From: Bacilli bacterium
Lineage (GTDB): Bacteria; Bacillota_I; Bacilli_A; RFN20; CAG-826
Direction: 5' to 3'
Assembly: GCA_017651165.1 (NCBI GenBank)
Contig: JAGCDH010000025.1
Coordinates: 1 to 37,701 of the forward strand
Length of the DNA: 37,701 nucleotides
The notes under the pieces are model-generated. The model was not told the DNA's origin and did not search any database. It worked only from the letters and a program-made list of their open reading frames with translations. A program made the position numbers and the translations under genes. This document shows, piece after piece, positions 94 through 31,512 of this stretch (the first letter of the stretch is position 1; each line of letters starts with the position of its first letter).

Positions 94-120
94 AGGAACC
101 TTGTCTTGGTTCCTTTTTTC
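94..120 (+). terminator. Rho-independent terminator of the upstream gene
   Basis: AGGAACC (94-100) pairs with GGTTCCT (108-114) around a 7-base loop and is followed by a T-tract (115-119). It closes the gene that enters from the left edge. Confidence 0.8.
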
Positions 121-650
121 TTTCATATGAATTTATAAATTGATTTGTGCAATTCAAGATAAGTTGGTCTGAGCAATTACACTTTTAACCAGGTGTCAAA
201 GTACAGTAGCTTTCATTCTGTTTGATACAAAATGTTTCATTCATATTATGTCGTGGTTGGTTGTGTTTGCGAGCCGGCCAGTTGAGCAATTTTTTAGCAT
301 GTTGAAGTCGCAGCAGGAGGTCGCTTGTTTTGTTGCTGGTAGGCATTTGCTTAGGCTGTCTGCCTTTGCTTGATGTGGAGCTTGTTTGGAGCTGTTATGC
401 GAGCGTGGCTACAGTCAGCTTGATAGTAGCGGCGTGGGCGAGGCGGTAAGTAGCTATATATTATATATGTTTGGGGCGGGAGCTGTGGGCAGAAGCTATT
501 ATTTGCTGTTGGGCGGTAGCTGTTGGTATAAGCAGTATAGTGAAAGAATAGTGAAAAGATAATGAAGGGCGAATGCTGTAGGTGTGGGCAATGTATAAGT
601 AAAATAATGGCTTGGGCGTATGGTTTGGGGCGGCGGTCGTATTAAGAGTA
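121..650. other. Gene-free G-rich stretch of unusual composition
   Basis: No plausible coding frame is visible on either strand: all frames are broken by stops. From about 240 to 645 the plus strand is strongly enriched in G over C; 421-480 has about 24 G against 6 C. Short related words recur, such as GTTTGGGGCGG (at about 469 and 623) and variants of GGAGCTGTT (at about 388, 479 and 515). The composition differs sharply from the AT-rich genes and spacers around it. It could be a structured non-coding RNA, a decayed insert or an assembly join. I recognise no known RNA family: no tmRNA or RNase P core motifs were seen. Confidence 0.5.
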
Positions 651-680: not shown

Positions 681-758
681 AAGCTTTGTGTGTGAGTTAT
701 TGTGATAAAAGATTTTGTGTCTATTTGAATGAATTAGATTGTGTTATTACACCAGGCA

Positions 759-2099
759 TTATTTCTTTAAGGATAATCCCACAATGGTTTCAACGTGAGC
801 GGTCATTGGAAACATATCGACTGGTTGGACATAATCGACCTTATACATCGAGGATAAGAATTCAATGTCCCTCGCTAAGGTTTCTGGATTGCACGAAATA
901 TAGATTATCTTCTTAATCTTCTTATTCATGACTGTGGATAAGAATGTTTCATCACTACCACTACGTGGTGGATCCATGATTAAGATATCAATATCTTCAT
1001 CCGATTTAGATATATATTCACCCGCATCCGCGCATACAAAATCAACATTATTAACGTCGTTACGCTTAGCGTTTTCAATCGCGTTCTTGTGCGCGCTTTT
1101 ATTGATTTCAACAGAAATCACTCTTTTCGCGTTCTTTGACGCAATTAAGCCGATTGTACCAACACCACTATAGGCATCTAACACGACTTCTTTTTTAGAG
1201 AAATCAATCAAATTTAGAGCACACGTGTATAGTTTTTCAACTTGAATTGGGTTGACTTGGAAGAAACTAGAAGCGCTTATTTCAAAAGTTAAACCTAAAA
1301 TATCATCTTTAATATGACCTGGACCATATAAGACTTTTTCTTGATTACCTAATATCACATTAGTGTGCCTGTTATTAACGTTTTCCACGATTGTGGTTAT
1401 TTCAGGATGTCTAGAGACTAATTCATTGATAAAGTTCCTTTGTCCTGGGAAGTTCATTTGTGTTGTCACTAAAACAACCATGAGTTCTTCATAATGATGG
1501 CTAGTTCTAATAAGGACATATCTTAAGATGCCTTTACCACTATCTTCGTTATAGCAAGGGATATTCATCTCTTCTAAAAGCAACTTGATATCCCAAAGAA
1601 TAGGTGCTGCTCTTTTATCTTCAATCGCACATTCTTTAATCGGCATAATGATATGGCTATTTTCTTTATAGAAACCAAACTTCACTTTGCCGTTTTTATC
1701 TTTATTAAAAGGTACTTGGATTTTATTTCGATAGTTATATGGATTGTCCATACCGATGCAAGGTAAAACCTTAGTGTCCACTTTAGCGATTCTACTTAAA
1801 GCTTCTTTGACTCTTTTAGTTTTAGATCTTAATTGTGCTTCATAACTATATTGTTGGTATTGGCAGCCCCCACACGATGTACAAATCTTACATCTTGGTT
1901 GGATTCTATCTTTAGATAAGTTATAGAGTTTTCTAACTTTACCAAAATATACACCTGCGCGGTGATAAAGAATTTCAACATCCGCTTTTTCACCAGGGAA
2001 GATACCATCACAAAAGATAATATCTTTGCCATTTTTAATGACACCTTTACCTTCACTAGATATATCAACACACAAACAATTAGAAATTATTTTTGTCAT
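759..2099 (-). CDS. rlmD: 23S rRNA (uracil-5-)-methyltransferase, RlmD/RlmCD family
   Basis: SAM-dependent enzyme that makes 5-methyluridine in 23S rRNA (or tRNA in close paralogues). At 446 residues it has the usual length for this family. It shows an N-terminal TRAM-like region (about residues 1-60). Iron-sulfur cysteines C70, C76 and C79 are in the family pattern C-x5-C-x2-C, with a further Cys in PIKEC. A SAM-binding motif (VLDAYSGVGTIGL) lies near residue 306, DPPRSG near 376, and the catalytic-Cys motif YISCNPETLARD near 400. Gram-positive members can modify both U747 and U1939 (RlmCD), and the sequence alone does not decide the target. The start ATG at 2099 has no clear Shine-Dalgarno. 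It lies close to a symmetric -10 element shared with the divergent lipoprotein gene. Confidence 0.9.
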   Translation of the reverse strand: MTKIISNCLCVDISSEGKGVIKNGKDIIFCDGIFPGEKADVEILYHRAGVYFGKVRKLYNLSKDRIQPRCKICTSCGGCQYQQYSYEAQLRSKTKRVKEALSRIAKVDTKVLPCIGMDNPYNYRNKIQVPFNKDKNGKVKFGFYKENSHIIMPIKECAIEDKRAAPILWDIKLLLEEMNIPCYNEDSGKGILRYVLIRTSHHYEELMVVLVTTQMNFPGQRNFINELVSRHPEITTIVENVNNRHTNVILGNQEKVLYGPGHIKDDILGLTFEISASSFFQVNPIQVEKLYTCALNLIDFSKKEVVLDAYSGVGTIGLIASKNAKRVISVEINKSAHKNAIENAKRNDVNNVDFVCADAGEYISKSDEDIDILIMDPPRSGSDETFLSTVMNKKIKKIIYISCNPETLARDIEFLSSMYKVDYVQPVDMFPMTAHVETIVGLSLKK

Positions 2100-5240: not shown

Positions 5241-6197
5241 TTACTGCTGATTTTCTTCTGATGTCGTCTCCATCATTTTCATGTCTTCTTTCATTCCTCG
5301 TCGGTAATCAAAGTAAGCGCTAATAGAAACAGCAACAATAATAATTAATCCACCAATCATAAGATTGAGGGTGAATTGTTCTAATTCAAAAGCGATTGAT
5401 AAGATAGAAGCCACAACCGCGGAGAATGGCACTAATAATGACACGGTCACTGCATCAATATAACGCATTGCCCAAGCACGACATACCCAGCATACAGCGG
5501 TACATACAACACCTAAGAAGATAACGATTAAAATTGGAACGATATCAAACGAAATAGTGAAGGTATGGAATACTTGTCCTTCAAAGATGAAAGCGTAGCC
5601 TGTAGAAATCACAGTCATCACGCAGATTTGGAAGAACACAAATAACAATGGATCTTTACCTTTGGAATACACTTTAGTGAAGGCTGTATCTAAGCCAAAG
5701 AATAAGCCACCTATCGCGCTTAATCCATCACCTTTAAGGCTTCCGCTTTTAAAGAAGTTGCCAAAGTTAAAGCCTTCGCCAACTAAAATCAAAGAACCGG
5801 CAACACATAAAAGTGCGGCCATGATACTGTACCATCTTGGTTTTTCTCTAATGAGAATGAACATGAAAAGAGGGATGGTAATACATGAGATGTTTTCTAA
5901 GAAAGCGTTTTTTGATGGGTGCGTGTATTCTAAACCAACAAATTGGAAAATATAGGCAACAGCGAGAATAATACCCGCTGGGATACAGACTAAATATGAT
6001 TTGTTAACTTTTTTAAAGCCTTTGTTGATAACGAGAGCAATCGCAATAATCGAAACAAAACCACGAAGCATGATAAGCACGCCAGGGGAAAACATGCCCC
6101 TATCAAATGCTGCTTTTGAAACAACAGGAGCAACACCCCATAGGGCCACTACTGCGATTAATACTAAGAATGAGACGATTCTAATTTCTTTATTCAT
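5241..6197 (-). CDS. EamA/DMT-family membrane transporter
   Basis: 318 residues with about ten hydrophobic segments in two similar halves, as in the drug/metabolite transporter superfamily (EamA). The N-terminal signature VALWGVAPVVSKAAFDRG and a second-half repeat ending in SAVVASILSIAFELEQ are typical. Substrates in this family range from amino acids to nucleosides and drugs and cannot be read from sequence. The promoter -10 TATAAT ends 9 bases before the ATG, leaving almost no leader and no proper Shine-Dalgarno. It is the first gene of a likely EamA-metG-SHOCT operon. Confidence 0.85.
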   Translation of the reverse strand: MNKEIRIVSFLVLIAVVALWGVAPVVSKAAFDRGMFSPGVLIMLRGFVSIIAIALVINKGFKKVNKSYLVCIPAGIILAVAYIFQFVGLEYTHPSKNAFLENISCITIPLFMFILIREKPRWYSIMAALLCVAGSLILVGEGFNFGNFFKSGSLKGDGLSAIGGLFFGLDTAFTKVYSKGKDPLLFVFFQICVMTVISTGYAFIFEGQVFHTFTISFDIVPILIVIFLGVVCTAVCWVCRAWAMRYIDAVTVSLLVPFSAVVASILSIAFELEQFTLNLMIGGLIIIVAVSISAYFDYRRGMKEDMKMMETTSEENQQ

Positions 6198-6363
6198 AGC
6201 CGACCTATTATAGTAGTTTTTTTACAAAATAAAAACCCCTTGATAACGCTAAACAAAATATCGGAGCGGATTAATGCCCTATTTTAAGCGTATGAAGGAT
6301 AAAAGATGTAATGTTTCGCGTATATAAAATAAAAAAATAATAAAAAAATGTAGTTTACATGAG

Positions 6364-6381
6364 TATTTTGTTAACAAAATA
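6364..6381. promoter_or_regulatory. 18-bp perfect palindrome, candidate operator
   Basis: TATTTTGTTAACAAAATA reads identically on both strands and is centred on GTTAAC. It lies about 50 bp upstream of the opp -35 box. Both the length and the symmetry suggest binding of a dimeric regulator. The regulator is unknown. Confidence 0.5.
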
Positions 6382-6420
6382 GTTAGTGAGAAAACCCTTG
6401 TTTAAACGTCTCTGTAAAGG

Positions 6421-6434
6421 GTTAAGCGCTTGAC
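6421..6434. promoter_or_regulatory. cre-like (LacI/CcpA-type) box over the opp -35
   Basis: GTTAAGCGCTTGAC contains the AAGCGCTT core of catabolite-response elements and matches the inner ten positions of the cre consensus, while the outer bases differ. It overlaps the -35 hexamer (6430-6435), a position where binding would repress. Confidence 0.4.
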
Positions 6435-6458
6435 TTTTATATGCGATAGTAGTTTACT
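6430..6458 (+). promoter_or_regulatory. Promoter of the opp operon
   Basis: TTGACT (6430-6435) and TTTACT (6453-6458) have a 17-bp spacer. The predicted transcript starts near 6465, giving a leader of about 36 bases with AAAGGAG placed 9 bases before the oppA start. Confidence 0.65.
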
Positions 6459-6500
6459 AATTGCAAATCTTTTAATTCTTAACGAAAGGAGAATCTAATT

Positions 6501-8312
6501 ATGAAATTCAAAAGATTACCCAAAGTTCTCGTGTTAGTATCTGTTGGCGCAATCTCTGCATGTAGTGGTTCACTTCCAAGTAGAACTGCACATAAAGATG
6601 AAGCGATCTACAGCGCTACAATCGATGGTGTCAAGAGAGACAATTTGACATGGGCGAACGCGTACGACGCCGTCATTGCCAAAACAAAAGCCACTAGTGG
6701 CGCCGAAAGAAACGAATATTTACATCAAGCCGAAGACATCTTAATGAGTACAGGTGCTATTGCTCCTATCTACTATTACACAGATATCTTCATGAAGAGC
6801 GCCGATATGGATGGCTTCTATTCATCCCCATTAGGCTACAAATTCTTCCACCGCGCAACAGTCGGTTCTTCAACTGACTACACAGTCTGCGTTGGTCCAA
6901 AAGGTGACTCTTACGACCCAGCCAAAAACTCCGCAGTTGATGGTGCTATCGTTATCTCTCACGTTTTCGAAGGTTTGTACCGTTGGGCAAAACCAGCTAG
7001 TGGTGACATCGCTGCTGATCTCGAACCAGCACAAGCCACAGGCTTTGAAAAGGTAGCCGTTGGATCCGAAGGCCACGTCAAGTACACATTCACATTAAGA
7101 AGTGATGCGAAGTACTCTGATGGCTCAGCCTTAAAACCAAGTGATTTCGCCAATTCTTGGGCCAGAGCCGCTTCTGGTAAATTAGGCGCTGACTATGGTT
7201 ATATGTTTGACTGCGTAGTTGGTTATGAAGCAACAGCCGCTGACGAAGACAAATACTTACCATTAAGTGGTGTTACAGCCGATGACAATGCTGGTACACT
7301 CGAAGTTGAACTCATTAGTGACGTTCCATACTTCTTAGAATTAACTGCCTTCCCAACATATGCTCCAGTTAAATTAGCTAACGTTCAAAAAGCTGATGGT
7401 TCTGAAGATGATGCCTGGTGGTTAGATCCAGCCAAATACATTGGTAATGGTCCATTAAAAGTTACCTCAATTGATAACAAAGAAGGTGGCAAAATTGAAT
7501 TTGCTCCTAACGCTAACTATTGGGACAATGCCAACACCAAAGTCACAAAGTTAACATTCGCGTTAACCGATGATGACAACAACCAATTAACAAACTACAA
7601 CTCTGGCGCTTACAAGTTCATCGACAGCGTACCAAACGAACAAATCGATTCCTTAAAAGCTTCCAAGCCAAACGAATTCAAAATTAATGGTCAATTAGGT
7701 ACCTACTACGTTATCTTCAACGTCAACGACAATACCTTAAATAAGAAGCTCGCCAATGAATCACAATATGTGACATTCCGTAAAGCTTTAAGCTTATTAA
7801 TCGATAGAAACTATGTCTGTAAGAATATCGGTAAAGCTGGCCAAGAACCTGCCAATACATTCGTTGGTAAAGGTATCATGGAAAACAACGACGGTGTCTT
7901 AAGCGAATGGACAACAAGATCCGGTGTCAACAGAGACGGTTCCGGTTACTTCAAAGTTGGTGAAAACGACTACGAAGCCAACTGTGCTGAAGCTGTTGAA
8001 ATGCTCAAGAGCTTAGGCTTCAAGTACAACGAAAAGAAAGGTTCATTCAGTGATATCCCAACCATCAAGTATCTCTACAATACTTCTTCTGGTCACAAAG
8101 CCATCGCTGAATACTTACAAGCTGCCTTCAAACCTTATGGCATCAAGTTAAAACTTGAATCACAAGAATGGGCAACCTTCCTCAATACTCGTAAAGATGG
8201 TAATTATTCTATCGCTCGTAACGGTTGGTTAGCAGACTACAACGACGCATGTTCCTTCTTAGACATGTGGACAACCAATTCCGGCAATAACGACGCTCAA
8301 TTTGGTAGATAA
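6501..8312 (+). CDS. oppA: Peptide-binding lipoprotein OppA with circularly permuted domain order
   Basis: Extracellular peptide-binding lipoprotein (cluster C, SBP_bac_5 family) feeding the permease encoded downstream. The signal peptide ends in lipobox ISAC (Cys21). Residues about 28-121 match what is normally the C-terminal end of OppA proteins: AYDAVIAKTK, the helix AEDILMSTGAIAP, IYYYT, then GFYSSPLGYKFF. The canonical N-terminal body begins only at about residue 124 (TDYTVCVGPKGDSYDP, then HVFEGLYRW and YTFTLRSDAKYSDG). It runs to WLADYNDACSFLDMWTTNSGNNDAQFGR and stops, just where the missing C-terminal segment would begin. Total length (603) is normal for the family. The order is therefore signal, C-segment, body. 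The frame is open and base and codon use look uniform. Functional permutation is my favoured reading; an assembly rearrangement is not excluded. Confidence 0.88.
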   Translation: MKFKRLPKVLVLVSVGAISACSGSLPSRTAHKDEAIYSATIDGVKRDNLTWANAYDAVIAKTKATSGAERNEYLHQAEDILMSTGAIAPIYYYTDIFMKSADMDGFYSSPLGYKFFHRATVGSSTDYTVCVGPKGDSYDPAKNSAVDGAIVISHVFEGLYRWAKPASGDIAADLEPAQATGFEKVAVGSEGHVKYTFTLRSDAKYSDGSALKPSDFANSWARAASGKLGADYGYMFDCVVGYEATAADEDKYLPLSGVTADDNAGTLEVELISDVPYFLELTAFPTYAPVKLANVQKADGSEDDAWWLDPAKYIGNGPLKVTSIDNKEGGKIEFAPNANYWDNANTKVTKLTFALTDDDNNQLTNYNSGAYKFIDSVPNEQIDSLKASKPNEFKINGQLGTYYVIFNVNDNTLNKKLANESQYVTFRKALSLLIDRNYVCKNIGKAGQEPANTFVGKGIMENNDGVLSEWTTRSGVNRDGSGYFKVGENDYEANCAEAVEMLKSLGFKYNEKKGSFSDIPTIKYLYNTSSGHKAIAEYLQAAFKPYGIKLKLESQEWATFLNTRKDGNYSIARNGWLADYNDACSFLDMWTTNSGNNDAQFGR

Positions 8313-8330
8313 TTCTTGACAATTAGTTAA

Positions 8331-8372
8331 TAGCAAACCAGGTGAGGCGCGAGTCTCTACCTGGTTTTGCTA
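8331..8372 (+). promoter_or_regulatory. Strong intercistronic hairpin between oppA and oppB
   Basis: TAGCAAACCAGGT (8331-8343) pairs with ACCTGGTTTTGCTA (8359-8372, one T bulged). Only a weak T-run follows, so it is more likely an attenuator or mRNA-stabilising element than a full terminator. Such hairpins behind binding-protein genes keep their expression above that of the permease genes. Confidence 0.75.
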
Positions 8373-8404
8373 TTTAGCATCTTACGTAAAAAAGGAGGGA
8401 ACAT

Positions 8405-9334
8405 ATGAATAAGAAACTTGCTTTTTATATTCTTAAGAGAGTTCTATTAGCCTTTTTGACCATTATTATTGTTATTACGGTGACTTTCTTCGCCGTGCAA
8501 CTTATTCCAGGTGGTCCATTTACTTCTGAAAAAGCCGTTTCTCCTGAAACGTTGGCAAGACTAGAGAAGATGTATGGACTCGATAAACCTATTTTTATTC
8601 AATATATTAATTATTTAGGGCACGCTCTCATCTTTGATTTTGGTTATTCAATCAAATCTCGTGGCGCCGTGACAGTCGGCTCCATCATTGCTGACCGAAT
8701 GCAATACAGTGCAGCTATCGGTTTAATTGCGGCCTTTATCGCTATTATTATCGGCGTTGCTTTAGGTTCATTAGCCGCTTATAAACACAACACCACTACT
8801 GACCGTGTCATCATGGTACTTAGTACCGCTAGTGTGGCGATGCCATCATTTATCATCTCCACCATTCTTCTTTATTTATTCTGCAATGTCTGGCAAATCT
8901 TACCTGCTAATGGTTTTGATTGGCGCGGATACATTCTTCCAACATTTACGCTTTCGTTGTACCCGATGGCGTACATTACGCGTTTAACTCGTTCATCCAC
9001 TCTTGATGTCCTTGGTAGCGATTACATTAGAACCGCTTATGCTAAGGGATCTAGTTTCTCAAGAGTTTTATATAAACACTCATTAAGAAATTCATTAACT
9101 CCAGTTATTACATACGCTGGACCAATGATTGCTTTTATCGTGACTGGCTCACTTGTCGTCGAAAAGATCTACGGTATTCCTGGTATTGGTCGTGAATTCG
9201 TCGCGTCAATTACTAACCGTGACTATCCAGAAGTTATGGGCCTCACTATTTTCTTAACATATTTAGTCGTCATTATGGTTTTAGTTAGTGACATTCTTTA
9301 TAAAGTGGTTAACCCACGCGTTGAATTAGAGTAA
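8405..9334 (+). CDS. oppB: Oligopeptide ABC transporter permease OppB
   Basis: Inner-membrane permease subunit, 309 residues with six predicted membrane segments. The N-terminal OppB/DppB signature is present (ILKRVLLAFLTIIIVITVTF, then LIPGGPF). The EAA loop that contacts the ATPases is DYIRTAYAKGSSFSRVLYKH, followed by ITYAGPMIAFIVTGSLVVEK and YGIPGIGR. The start is fixed by AAGGAGGG 6-8 bases upstream. The gene lies second in the opp operon, separated from oppA by the hairpin at 8331-8372. Confidence 0.95.
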   Translation: MNKKLAFYILKRVLLAFLTIIIVITVTFFAVQLIPGGPFTSEKAVSPETLARLEKMYGLDKPIFIQYINYLGHALIFDFGYSIKSRGAVTVGSIIADRMQYSAAIGLIAAFIAIIIGVALGSLAAYKHNTTTDRVIMVLSTASVAMPSFIISTILLYLFCNVWQILPANGFDWRGYILPTFTLSLYPMAYITRLTRSSTLDVLGSDYIRTAYAKGSSFSRVLYKHSLRNSLTPVITYAGPMIAFIVTGSLVVEKIYGIPGIGREFVASITNRDYPEVMGLTIFLTYLVVIMVLVSDILYKVVNPRVELE

Positions 9335-9348
9335 AGGAGGGCCGTCAA

Positions 9349-10413
9349 ATGAAGAAATTTAGAAATCCTTTTTCTTTCCAAGTTGATTACGATCGTGAAT
9401 CAATTTTCAAAGTGGCAACAGATAAAGAAAAAGAAGAACAAACATTTATGCGCCCTTCCACTTCCTTCTTTGGAGACGCTGTTAGAAGATTTAGAAGAAA
9501 TAAGATTGCTGTTATTTCATTGTTCTTTGTGATTCTTGTCTTATTAGCTATCTTTATCGTTCCGATCTTCTATCCATATAGTTATGACCAACAATTAGGC
9601 ATTATTCCTGGTAAGCCAGTCGATGGGTCGTTTGCTAATTTGGCACCATTTACGTACTGTGAAACCGAAAAAGCACGTATGGCCGCCGGTGAGTTCATCT
9701 GGCCACACATCTTTGGTACAGATAATGCTGGCAGAGACTACTTTATTCGTGTCATTTATGGCGCACGTGTCTCATTACTCGTTGGTTTCTTTGCCGCTTT
9801 CATTGTCTTGATTGTCGGTACTATTTATGGTTCAATCTCTGCTTTCAGTGGTGGCAAGGTTGATATGATTATGATGCGTATCGTTGACGTTATTTATTCG
9901 TTGCCAGATATGGTCATCATCATTCTCTTATCTGTTGTTTTGAATAACGCTTTCGATTTTGAAGGGACACCACTAGAAAACGTTGGTACCTCATTAATAT
10001 CCATCTTCATTGTTTATGCTTTGTTATATTGGGTAGGTATGGCCAGATTAGTGCGTGGTCAAGTCTTATCCATTAAACAAACTGAATACGTTTTAGCCAG
10101 TAGATCAATTGGTACAAGCACTCCAATGATTTTAAGAAAGCACATTATTCCTAACTGCTTATCAGTTATTATCGTGAGCGCTACTTTACAAATACCAAGT
10201 GCTATCTTTACTGAATCATTCTTGAGCTTTATTGGTTTAGGTGTCAGCGCACCAATGCCATCATTAGGTAGTTTAGCTAGTGACGCAATTGGAGCATTAC
10301 CAACTCAACCTTACTTATTACTCATTCCAGCAGTATTTATTTGTTTAATCGTCTTAGCACTCAACTTAGCGGGTGATGGCCTTAGAGATGCCTTTGACCC
10401 GAAACAGAAATAG
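9349..10413 (+). CDS. oppC: Oligopeptide ABC transporter permease OppC
   Basis: Second permease subunit, 354 residues. It has a cytoplasmic N-terminal arm of about 50 residues, then six predicted membrane segments. The first periplasmic loop ends in the family hallmark FGTDNAGRDYFIRVIYGAR. The EAA loop reads YVLASRSIGTSTPMILRKHI, and FTESFLSFIGLGV follows as usual for OppC. The ribosome site AAAGGAGGG lies 7-10 bases before ATG 9349, with 14 bases from the oppB stop. It pairs with OppB to form the peptide channel. Confidence 0.95.
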   Translation: MKKFRNPFSFQVDYDRESIFKVATDKEKEEQTFMRPSTSFFGDAVRRFRRNKIAVISLFFVILVLLAIFIVPIFYPYSYDQQLGIIPGKPVDGSFANLAPFTYCETEKARMAAGEFIWPHIFGTDNAGRDYFIRVIYGARVSLLVGFFAAFIVLIVGTIYGSISAFSGGKVDMIMMRIVDVIYSLPDMVIIILLSVVLNNAFDFEGTPLENVGTSLISIFIVYALLYWVGMARLVRGQVLSIKQTEYVLASRSIGTSTPMILRKHIIPNCLSVIIVSATLQIPSAIFTESFLSFIGLGVSAPMPSLGSLASDAIGALPTQPYLLLIPAVFICLIVLALNLAGDGLRDAFDPKQK

Positions 10414-10424
10414 GAGGGAAAGAT

Positions 10425-12203
10425 ATGGAAAAAGAAGTTTTATTAGAAGTAAAAGATCTCCATACATCATTCAATGTCCCTTCTGGCGAAGTGAGAAGTG
10501 TTAATGGTGTTTCATTCACCTTAAGAAGAGGCGAAGTTTTAGGTATCGTCGGTGAATCTGGTTCTGGTAAAAGCGTGACTGCGTATTCTGTCATGCAAAT
10601 CTTAGAAAAACCAGGACGTGTCATCGGTGGTTCTATTAAATTCAAAGGCCAAGAATTACTTGGTTTACCAAATAAACAATTACAAAGAATTAGAGGTAAG
10701 AATATCTCTATTATCTTCCAAGACTCAATGTCTTCTTTAAATCCAGTGTGGAGTATTGGTAATCAATTAAGAGAAGCCGTTAAGATTCACGAAGATAGCG
10801 AACATAAGAAAAATAGAAAAGCTCGCATTGCTGAATTAAAAGCGGAAATTAAAGCGAAAGAAACTGAATTCGCTAATAATCCAGAAGAAAAAGAGAAAAC
10901 CATAGCCCCACTTAAGCAAGAATTACACGATCAAGTGAACTTCGCTCAAAAAAGAGCGTTAGAAATGCTCCGTTTAGTGGGCATTAACGAACCAGAAAAA
11001 CGTTTGAAACAATATCCGTTCGAACATTCTGGTGGCATGCTCCAAAGAGTGATGATCGCCATGGCGTTAATTAACGAACCAGATTTAATTATCGCTGACG
11101 AACCAACGACCGCTTTAGACGTCACCATTCAAGCGCAAATTCTTGAGTTATTAATCGACTTACAGAAGAGACTTAACGTCGGTATTATTATCATTACTCA
11201 CGATTTAGGTGTTGTCGCCCAAATCTGTCATAGAGTAAACGTTATGTACGCTGGTAGAATCGTGGAAACTGGTACAGTTGATGATATCTTCTATAATCCA
11301 CAACACGAATATACTAAAGGTCTTATTAATTCCATTCCAAAAGCGGGTAAACGCGCGGATAAATTAGAACCAATTCCTGGTAACCCAGTGGATGTTTTCA
11401 CTTTACCAAGTGGTTGTTCTTTTGCCCCACGTTGTAAAAACTGTATGAAAGTCTGCTTGAAGAAATTCCCGAAATTCATTCAAGTCGGTGACGATCATTA
11501 TACAGCTTGCTTTAAATACTTAGAAAAGCTCTATCAAGAAGGCAAGATTAAAGAAGAAGACTTCGATAAGTATATCGATAGTTGTGAAGAAGGCAATAAA
11601 GCCTTCTCTAGAATCAGCCGTTTAGACGTGGAAAAGGCTTATCAAGATTATTTGTCTAAGAAAGCGGAAAACACCGCTAAGATTGGCGATAATGCATCAA
11701 GCAAAGATGAAATTGAAGCGGCCCGTTATCAAATCAGAGACGCTAAGCTTGAATATCGTCGTGCTAAACGCGATTTTGCCTATGCAATCAAAGAACGTCA
11801 TACCGGTGGTAAAGAAAGATTATCTATTGATAAGAATGACGTTCATAAAAAGATTAAGCACCATAAAGTGGAGATCGGCACTAAGGCTCCAAATATGTCA
11901 GCCGATGAATTTAATGCCTATTTAGAAACATTAGTGATTTCCACCACTCCTGTTAATCCAAACGCTTCTAAAGAAGCAGTCCAAGAAGCAAAGAATAACT
12001 TAAAAGTGGCAAGAAAGAATTATGCTGCTCAAAAGAAAGTTTCTCGCGAAGAAAAAGTGAAGGCATTAACAGAAATCGATGCCGCGAAAGAAAAAGTTGC
12101 CCAAAGCAAGAGAGATTTAGTGTGGTTCAATTATATTGAAAAGAAGATGTTATCCACAAAGAAGGCTTTGGCCAGAATATATGAAAAGAAGAAGGGAGAA
12201 TAG
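10425..12203 (+). CDS. oppD: Oligopeptide ABC transporter ATPase OppD with long coiled-coil tail
   Basis: ATPase subunit. Walker A is GESGSGKS (43-50), the Q-loop Gln is 99, the signature HSGGMLQR is 201-208 (His in place of the usual Leu/Phe), Walker B is LIIADEP (221-227) and the switch His is 259. The C-terminal oligopeptide module carries Cys331, 337, 340, 344 and 362; related OppD proteins hold an iron-sulfur cluster in this region. Two additions set it apart. One is a charged insert of about 50 residues between Q-loop and signature (about 124-172). The other is a Lys/Glu/Ala-rich, mostly helical tail of about 225 residues after residue 366. Family members are usually about 330-360 residues, against 592 here. 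The stop is followed by AGGAGG for oppF. Confidence 0.93.
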   Translation: MEKEVLLEVKDLHTSFNVPSGEVRSVNGVSFTLRRGEVLGIVGESGSGKSVTAYSVMQILEKPGRVIGGSIKFKGQELLGLPNKQLQRIRGKNISIIFQDSMSSLNPVWSIGNQLREAVKIHEDSEHKKNRKARIAELKAEIKAKETEFANNPEEKEKTIAPLKQELHDQVNFAQKRALEMLRLVGINEPEKRLKQYPFEHSGGMLQRVMIAMALINEPDLIIADEPTTALDVTIQAQILELLIDLQKRLNVGIIIITHDLGVVAQICHRVNVMYAGRIVETGTVDDIFYNPQHEYTKGLINSIPKAGKRADKLEPIPGNPVDVFTLPSGCSFAPRCKNCMKVCLKKFPKFIQVGDDHYTACFKYLEKLYQEGKIKEEDFDKYIDSCEEGNKAFSRISRLDVEKAYQDYLSKKAENTAKIGDNASSKDEIEAARYQIRDAKLEYRRAKRDFAYAIKERHTGGKERLSIDKNDVHKKIKHHKVEIGTKAPNMSADEFNAYLETLVISTTPVNPNASKEAVQEAKNNLKVARKNYAAQKKVSREEKVKALTEIDAAKEKVAQSKRDLVWFNYIEKKMLSTKKALARIYEKKKGE

Positions 12204-12215
12204 GAGGTAAGTTTT

Positions 12216-13445
12216 ATGATTTCAAAAGAATTACAAGCACAACTAGACAAAGAGTTTGCTGCTGCAAATGAAGACTTAAACGTCAAAAAAGAAATCGTCT
12301 TAGAAGTTAACCACCTCTCGATGTATTTCCCTGTAAACGTTGGTTTCATGAAAACCAAACCTTTAAAAGCGGTTGATGATGTTAGCTTTACCGTTAAAAG
12401 AGGCGAAACCGTTGGTTTAGTCGGTGAATCTGGCTGTGGTAAAACCACATTAGGTAGAACTGTTCTTCAATTATACAAACCAACCGGTGGCCGTATTATC
12501 TTCAATGGTCAAAGAGTTAATCCTGGTACCAAAATGGATATCGATGAACTCACTGGCAAAATCAATGAAATGAAAAATTTGATTAATGAATTAGAACCGA
12601 AGGTTCAAGCCGGTGACGAAGAGGCTATTAACCAAGTTAAATTGGCCAATGACCGTATTGAAAGACTAGAAAAGAATATTGAGAAAATCAAAGCTAGTAA
12701 AAAATACTATAAGAAACTCATTAAAGAGTTTAGAAAACACGCGCAAATGATTTTCCAAGATCCATATTCATCTTTGGATCCACGTATGACCGTCGAAGAC
12801 ATCATTGCTGAGCCATTAGATGCACATAAGATTTGTAAGACCAAAGAAGAACGCCACAGAAGAGTGGAAGAACTCATGAAAATGGTTGGCTTATCAAGCG
12901 AACATGCAACAAGATATGCGCATGAATTCTCTGGTGGCCAAAGACAGCGTATTGGTATTGCGAGAGCTTTGGCTCTTAATCCTGAATTTATTGTTTGCGA
13001 CGAACCTGTCTCCGCATTAGACGTTTCCATTCAAGCGCAAGTGATTAATACCTTTAAAGAGTTGCAAGAAAAACTCAAACTTACATATCTCTTTGTCGCT
13101 CATAACTTATTAGTCGTGAGACACATCTCAAATAGAATCGCCGTTATGTATTTAGGACATATCGTTGAATTTGCGGATAGCGATGAATTATTCGAAAATC
13201 CATTGCACCCATATACAAATTCATTGTTGTCTGCGATTCCTGTTCCAGATCCAGACATCGCTAGAAACAATAAGCGTATTATTATGCAAGGTGATATTCC
13301 ATCACCACTTAACGCTCCAAGCGGTTGTCCATTCAGAACAAGATGTCCGAAAGCAAGACCTGAATGTGCTGAATCTAGACCAAGACTTGTGGAAGTTAAA
13401 CCTGGTCACCAAGTGGCTTGTCACTTAGTAAAACCAGAAGAATAA
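12216..13445 (+). CDS. oppF: Oligopeptide ABC transporter ATPase OppF with helical insert
   Basis: Second ATPase of the permease, 409 residues. Walker A is GESGCGKT (70-77), the Q-loop Gln is 181, the signature FSGGQRQR starts at 238, Walker B is FIVCDEP (258-264) and the switch His is 296, followed by Asn where Asp is usual (AHNLLVV). A Lys/Glu-rich coiled-coil insert of about 70 residues (about 103-172) separates Walker A from the Q-loop. The C-terminal Cys module ([14 protein letters not shown]) is present. Last gene of the operon, with ribosome site AGGAGG about 8 bases before ATG 12216. Confidence 0.94.
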
Positions 13446-31423: not shown

Positions 31424-31506
31424 AAGAAACCACCGCACATGAACATAATACTTAAGGCTGCTACATTCCTGTCCTGACCTGGTTCATAAACATCCATCGC
31501 GATGGC
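31424..31506 (-). ncRNA. ffs: Signal recognition particle RNA (small bacterial 4.5S type)
   Basis: The minus strand contains the SRP RNA core: a GGAA tetraloop closed by ACA/TGT, flanked by TCAGG on the 5' side and AGCAGCC on the 3' side (about 31480-31456). This matches the invariant GTCAGG-loop-AGCAGCC of helix 8, with a covarying closing stem in place of TCC/GGA. Outside it ATGAAC pairs with GTTCAT, and the ends CCATCGC and GCGGTGG pair over 7 bp. The 5' end modelled at 31506 is exactly where the upstream extended -10 promoter predicts transcription to start. The RNA binds Ffh for membrane targeting of proteins. Its place next to tadA and serS is conserved in Firmicutes. Confidence 0.94.
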
Positions 31507-31512
31507 GAAAAG

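Follow-up and report, generated by a model that had tools for sequence, protein, structure and literature searches.

What is a strongly G-skewed, non-coding block doing directly behind the rlmD gene of an uncultured Bacilli bacterium? The block lies at positions 240-645 of contig JAGCDH010000025.1 (assembly GCA_017651165.1), whose 37,701 nucleotides (nt), analyzed on the forward strand, constitute the window referred to throughout. A first-pass annotation had placed it between two terminators and had offered a structured RNA, a decayed mobile or coding insert, or a region of unusual strand bias as explanations. We find instead that the block is the interior of a 558-bp non-autonomous transposon at 194-751, just behind rlmD, and that this cassette belongs to a family with members across the order, related cassettes being present in many uncultured Bacilli. 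In our assessment the element is likely to be a site-specific DNA transposon that does not encode its own enzyme and was inserted behind rlmD by a transposase supplied in trans.

The element at 194-751

The element opens with TGTC at 194 and closes with ACA at 751, its ends being inverted and repeat-bearing (TGT...ACA), and comparison of the flanks shows CCAGG immediately outside both borders (189-193 and 752-756) as a perfect 5-bp duplication. Only 7 nt separate it from the stop codon (759-761) of the target gene (759-2099, minus strand), which is matched in 14 of 16 genomes of the genus and which we take to be rlmD from the first-pass annotation and known motifs rather than from a family search. 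The left end comprises three plus-strand repeats of 24-25 bp each: alignment A1 places the terminal unit at 194-218 and the second at 219-242, and the third (TATTATGTCGTG N13 GCGAGC, 243-274) aligns between gene-carrying and non-coding cassettes, with its TATTATGTCGTG N13 GCGA portion kept in G-rich-core and gene-carrying members alike. The same motif recurs inverted at the right end (690-751, minus strand, terminus TGTAATAAC), which matches the right-end sequence model (C24:691-751, E 8.7e-11, the sequence itself being in the training set). Between the ends lie the G-rich non-coding core (275-645, plus strand, from core comparison) and, at 658-680, an inverted repeat followed, on the strand of rlmD, by a T-rich tail. 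This terminator-like hairpin, which a stricter terminator scan did not list, had been annotated as the terminator of rlmD and belongs to the element. The unit is thus 194-751 and not an interval of 240-645 between two terminators, and of the earlier "decayed mobile insert" the mobility stands and the decay does not, the ends and the duplication being intact.

A DNA search of 16 genomes of the genus returned matches in 6, including the window's own genome with further copies on another contig; similarity among these copies ends at sharp borders, and several of them stand head to tail. Farther afield, in the order as a whole, the left-end model matches 84 of 279 genomes, which belong to 18 of its 56 genera, and the right-end model 69 of 279, which belong to 19 of the 56. 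In a sample of the class, left-end matches were found in 10 of 395 genomes, nine of them from the window's family (its own genome included) and the tenth weak (E 5.4e-4). A scan of genome_contigs (84,980 species) for the third-repeat pattern yielded 32 stretches, whose left ends all contain TATTATGTCG by construction; by eye we judged 27 to be real and five doubtful (L070, L081, L082, L085 and L097, where L denotes fetched loci and G, below, genomes). Most of the 27 come from uncultured records that carry the name Erysipelotrichaceae, Bacillales or Bacilli, together with Onthovivens, one Mollicutes-named and one Clostridia-named record; the duplicate contigs L075, L084, L087, L093 and L095 were left out of most analyses. 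The phage and plasmid collections gave no blastn match to the cassette, viral contigs gave seven pattern matches of which none resembles a cassette end by eye, and a literature search, with most subscription journals outside its coverage, found no description of these cassettes.

To the left of the element, the segment at about 135-181 (plus strand) is read as the right end of an older cassette (nhmmer match, E 0.25; right-end model match C24:126-181, E 4.1e-9, again with the sequence itself in the training set), of a subtype also found in L073 and L079. The terminator annotated on this side does exist, as a terminator-like hairpin at 94-114 (plus strand) in the terminator scan, but it is assigned to the older cassette and is no boundary of the block. 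The 3' end of an open frame entering from the contig start (3-66, plus strand) is probably cargo of the same older cassette, and its 21-residue tail has no clear relative among the fetched loci.

Target genes, duplications and arrays

Across the loci used for target and orientation counts (the window, L011-L019, L027, 17 of L067-L098 and L138-L240), 36 of the 85 distinct right termini face one of three named targets, namely rlmD (21), rpsR (6) or tRNA-Ala (9), and a further 3 face a tRNA-like CCA end; 25 adjoin the next cassette and 21 have no recognized target. The orientation is real, since none of the 85 right termini meets rlmD or rpsR on the other strand and only one of 99 left termini faces rlmD; one more left terminus lies on the other strand of rlmD, and none is at rpsR or a tRNA. 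At tRNA-Ala the distance to the terminus is 12-14 bp in eight of nine cases and 45 bp in the ninth, and ARAGORN reported a tRNA in 11 of the 24 loci submitted, every one of them tRNA-Ala. Inside 50 of 60 distinct right ends lies a hairpin of terminator type that is read from the target side inward, as against 24% of shuffled sequences, and an outward-reading one lies inside 53 of the 60; we infer that a gene with a cassette inserted behind it receives its terminator from the cassette.

The duplication seen in the window recurs. In the 55 paired ends examined (window, L011-L019, 17 of L067-L098 and L108-L187), identical 5-mers flank eight, where shuffling gives a mean of 0.49 and a maximum of 4 in 2,000, and all eight fall among the 21 pairs whose right end, by our own reading, is at a target gene. 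Arrays carry the same signature: GAAGT stands between two cassettes of G010 and again between the second cassette and rlmD, and TGAAG between two cassettes of G013 and again between the second and rpsR, as expected if every new insertion strikes the same bases.

We propose that a transposase supplied in trans would bind the end repeats, and a target selector would recognize the 3' part of the gene and steer insertion a few bases downstream, so that the gene would usually be left whole. The right-end hairpin would then stand in for the native terminator, which the insertion cuts off from the gene. Later insertions at that spot would shift older cassettes outward and build head-to-tail arrays, and the G-rich core would spread together with the ends.

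Several observations weigh against this account. The main ones are the 13 of 21 gene-proximal pairs that lack a perfect duplication (as do 47 of the 55 pairs overall) and the variable junctions, the spacing between neighboring cassettes being not always 5 bp but, by eye, also 2, 7, 9 or 12. Four of the 21 right ends without a recognized target lie, by eye, beside an rlmD-tail-like stretch, and the gap is less uniform at rlmD (1-43 nt, counted from the aligned end) and at rpsR (12-66) than at tRNA-Ala. The shares of rlmD and rpsR are biased upward because the models were trained partly on ends there (the right-end training set, A3, includes rlmD and rpsR ends and no known tRNA-Ala end), and some of the counted loci are related arrays from sister genomes. 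Finally, neither the transposase nor the target selector was found in the searches made.

Mobilizing machinery and known systems

The cassette behaves like Tn7, and we do not claim it as a Tn7-like transposon. Tn7-like transposons have TGT...ACA ends with multiple repeats for transposase binding, produce a 5-bp duplication and insert in one orientation at a fixed spot behind a conserved gene. In its repeat-bearing ends, its duplication and its oriented placement the cassette resembles Tn7, Tn5053 and the CRISPR-associated transposons (CASTs); it differs from them in its length of 558 bp, its lack of tns genes and its targets, rlmD, rpsR and tRNA-Ala. CyCAST reportedly inserts 30-33 nt past a tRNA, whereas the cassettes mostly lie at 12-14 bp. 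TniQ (PF06527), also sought in the genus, was matched in none of the 279 genomes of the order, with 14 control genomes silent too, and Mu-transpos_C (PF09299) in two, one of these being a 633-amino-acid frame, MuA-like by eye, in a 2-kb locus without cassette ends; we therefore do not file the element under Tn7-like transposons.

The integrase core family rve (PF00665) was sought in 95 genomes, of which 22 carry left ends, and 8 of these 22 gave no match. The rve frames of the other left-end genomes are mostly of insertion-sequence size (below 400 amino acids), apart from one of 491 amino acids in G032, IS3-like by eye, and one of 1,067 amino acids in G090. A long rve frame in G085 (L066) was set aside, as by eye it resembles a copia retroelement and probably reflects eukaryotic contamination of the bin. 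No cassette ends were found in 30 rve loci or in the two PF09299 loci, a Pfam scan of 40 proteins in or near arrays gave OrfB_IS605 (L219) as the sole transposase family, and among these 40 proteins and 32 loci we recognized no parent autonomous element with the same ends. By eye, frames within 4 kb of cassette ends include IS3-like (L069), IS200-like (L204) and serine-recombinase-like ones (L240 and one more).

The cassettes might be what is left of an ordinary Tn7-like or CRISPR-associated transposon, its machinery now either gone or carried on elements outside the assemblies. Their end architecture, 5-bp duplication and targeting would fit, as would the fragmented and partly incomplete state of the genomes, yet left ends in 84 genomes and 18 genera stand against two genomes with Mu-transpos_C and none with TniQ, for which the control genomes were silent as well, and we regard this explanation as unlikely. 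Since ends with Tn7-style targeting are present in 18 of 56 genera and no Tn7 machinery was detected, the enzyme may remain to be found. We put forward, tentatively, a new site-specific transposition system of uncultured Bacilli, in which a novel transposase and one or more selectors would place small cassettes one-way behind tRNA-Ala, rpsR and rlmD and build integron-like arrays of gene-carrying and G-rich non-coding units, the non-coding cassettes forming a selfish or regulatory lineage. Such behavior is of a known kind; what sets it apart is the missing enzyme, the three targets and the array habit, which may amount to more than a variation on that kind. Few insertion systems are known to choose harmless sites, and the well-studied bacterial ones depend on TnsB and TniQ. 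Because its three targets are named, its orientation is fixed and it shows a 5-bp duplication, the system can be tested directly.

Miniature inverted-repeat transposable elements (MITEs) offer a second comparison: like them, the cassette is short and non-coding, has inverted ends and a target duplication, lacks a transposase of its own and is presumably mobilized in trans. It departs from them in its strong target choice, its arrays and its gene-carrying relatives with the same ends, and no parent insertion sequence was found. Integron cassettes likewise form tandem series of small units that bring no enzyme with them; of the cassettes described here, some hold a Fic or acetyltransferase gene and others are non-coding. 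These cassettes differ in that they show a 5-bp duplication and use three chromosomal sites, and the attC core GTTRRRY is, by eye, not conserved in their left ends.

These likenesses matter for the possibility that a tyrosine recombinase, integron-like or Tn916-like, moves the cassettes, with the 5-mers serving as overlap (coupling) sequences. Tandem arrays of small, enzyme-less cassettes are what such an enzyme would give; neighboring cassette ends form an imperfect inverted repeat around a short variable spacer; the flanks are unequal in most pairs; and integrases classically use the 3' ends of tRNAs and other genes. Against it, the spacing varies from 2 to 12, identical 5-mers flank eight pairs at target genes, beyond the 5-mer the target holds, by eye, no copy of the end sequence, and the integron core is, as noted, not conserved in the left ends. 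No integrase was noticed beside the targets, the integrase and tyrosine-recombinase families having had no dedicated search. On balance we rate this explanation as quite improbable. Integrative elements of streptococci use the 3' end of rumA/rlmD as their landing site and so share with our transposon the choice of this gene end; they differ in that the window cassette has no duplicated gene end, although copies of the rlmD tail are found close to other arrays.

Additional short stretches that repeat the 3' tail of rlmD were seen by eye in L011 (about 1515-1571), L017 (about 2390-2455), L144 (about 12850-12873) and L155 (about 12890-12919), and further copies lie at G014:C5:51243-51338 and G015:C67:3-83. 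Some adjoin cassette right ends, and they are the kind of trace that rlmD-using elements of the integrase type might leave.

The G-rich core, cargo and neighbors

No stretch of the contig is more G-skewed than the block at 240-645, whose GC skew of +0.466 bears out the reported excess of G over C: elsewhere the skew averages -0.025 (standard deviation 0.10, maximum 0.30, minimum -0.27), and none of 3,654 background windows (406 bases each, in steps of 10 bases from 761) reaches the block's absolute value. Its G+C content is raised as well (0.47 versus a mean of 0.37), yet 24 of the 3,654 windows equal it. The repeated words quoted in the first-pass annotation are all present, GTTTGGGGCGG at 469 and 623, GGAGCTGTT at 388, GGGAGCTGTG at 478 and GGTAGCTGTTGG at 515, as is the symmetric sequence in mid-block, TATATATTATATAT, an AT palindrome at 455-468 with similar palindromes in most aligned cores. 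The long repeated words are weak evidence and only marginally unusual; a repeated 11-mer also arises in 31 of 500 dinucleotide shuffles. Its 28 repeated 7-mers exceed the shuffle mean of 12.7 and are reached by none of the 500. The block also has no long open frame, its longest start-to-stop frame being 58 amino acids; stop-to-stop frames reach 62 (plus strand) and 96 amino acids (minus strand) in the window core, and 88 and 120, respectively, in the cores of 19 relatives.

In all 20 of the interiors chosen by hand, the G excess lies on the cassette's own left-to-right strand (skew 0.17-0.63), whichever contig strand the cassette occupies. The skew therefore travels with the element, and a chromosome-level strand bias is unlikely. 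The cores are mosaics, as seen on aligning 16 hand-chosen interiors, and the 94.7% likeness of L019 and L086, from two genera, over a 263-nt stretch points to recent spread. Similar cores also occur at different targets: the window (rlmD) and L015 (rpsR) agree at 99 of 110 nt, and the core of L016b is about 85% alike to those of L072 and L080 across rlmD and rpsR sites.

Could the core instead encode a structured or guide RNA, making the cassette an RNA-guided element? Non-coding words are conserved across genera, and a promoter-like TTGATA-16-TATTAT (222-249, plus strand, 10/12) is directed into the cassette, overlapping left repeats 2 and 3; positions 1-900 hold three such sites with 2.4 expected by chance, and 64 of 90 left ends, a set partly selected by pattern, score at least 8/12. 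Of 100 shuffles of the L015 core, 99 fold less well than the core itself (z -2.18; L074, -1.68), and in a single sequence a hairpin on the 3' side shows a compensated change from U-A to C-G. The window core itself, folded on both strands, does no better than its shuffles (z -0.68, equaled by 27 of 100), the consensus fold of the 16 interiors is weak, with the terminal hairpin and one invariant helix only, and Rfam gave no match in the block at gathering or permissive thresholds. In all 11 elements tested for a guide, some other target gives an exact match to the core at least as long as the best one from the element's own target, and similar cores occur at rlmD and rpsR alike. The structured RNA first suggested is thus unsupported, and we consider RNA guidance quite unlikely; we think that the G-rich core of the transposon is either transcribed under light constraint or DNA that arises as a by-product. 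Lastly, the block lies 240 bases from a contig end, which could suggest a chimeric assembly or contaminating sequence there. This has a negligible probability: left ends of this type are present in 84 of the 279 genomes, and the same rlmD arrangement is found in G010 and elsewhere.

Of the 55 paired ends, 29 enclose no ATG-initiated frame of at least 80 amino acids and 26 enclose one. Genes between paired ends include those for a Fic protein (L139), a GNAT acetyltransferase (L138), a GFO/IDH/MocA oxidoreductase (L149), a Band 7 protein (L153) and small leader-type proteins (L011 and L092), and two 7-kb pairs (L147 and L151), which may not be single cassettes, surround pyrG and other core-like genes. 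Other genes lie near the arrays, namely a C5 methylase and McrBC (L144) and a Schlafen-type helicase with a below-cutoff ThsB_TIR match (L145); as these restriction and helicase genes lie outside paired ends, they are neighbors and not cargo.

The L144 genes run consecutively at 5887-12629 (G183:C3) as C5 methylase, AAA protein, McrBC and DUF2971 protein, a likely defense island that sits between two cassettes near rlmD and adjoins an rlmD-tail copy. Repeated genes in L011 (1708-3244), L012 (8496-8810), L086 and L092 encode proteins of about 100 amino acids with cysteines and a common leader, ELLKGLSxEQ...GG, resembling Nif11-type leader peptides; Pfam gave no match for the L012 protein. In the cassette subtype of L073, L079, L089 and L076, a short frame follows a Shine-Dalgarno-like motif within the core, by eye. 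At L219:2105-4918 (G235:C12), a region that also holds cassette ends and the OrfB_IS605 gene, a 937-amino-acid protein in a bacterial genome bin matches the RNA-dependent RNA polymerase family PF05183 (E 1.7e-7). Rfam further places a fluoride riboswitch at L074:6280-6353 (E 6.5e-7), beyond an rpsR cassette, and Bacterial small SRP RNA at 31424-31508 of the window (minus strand).
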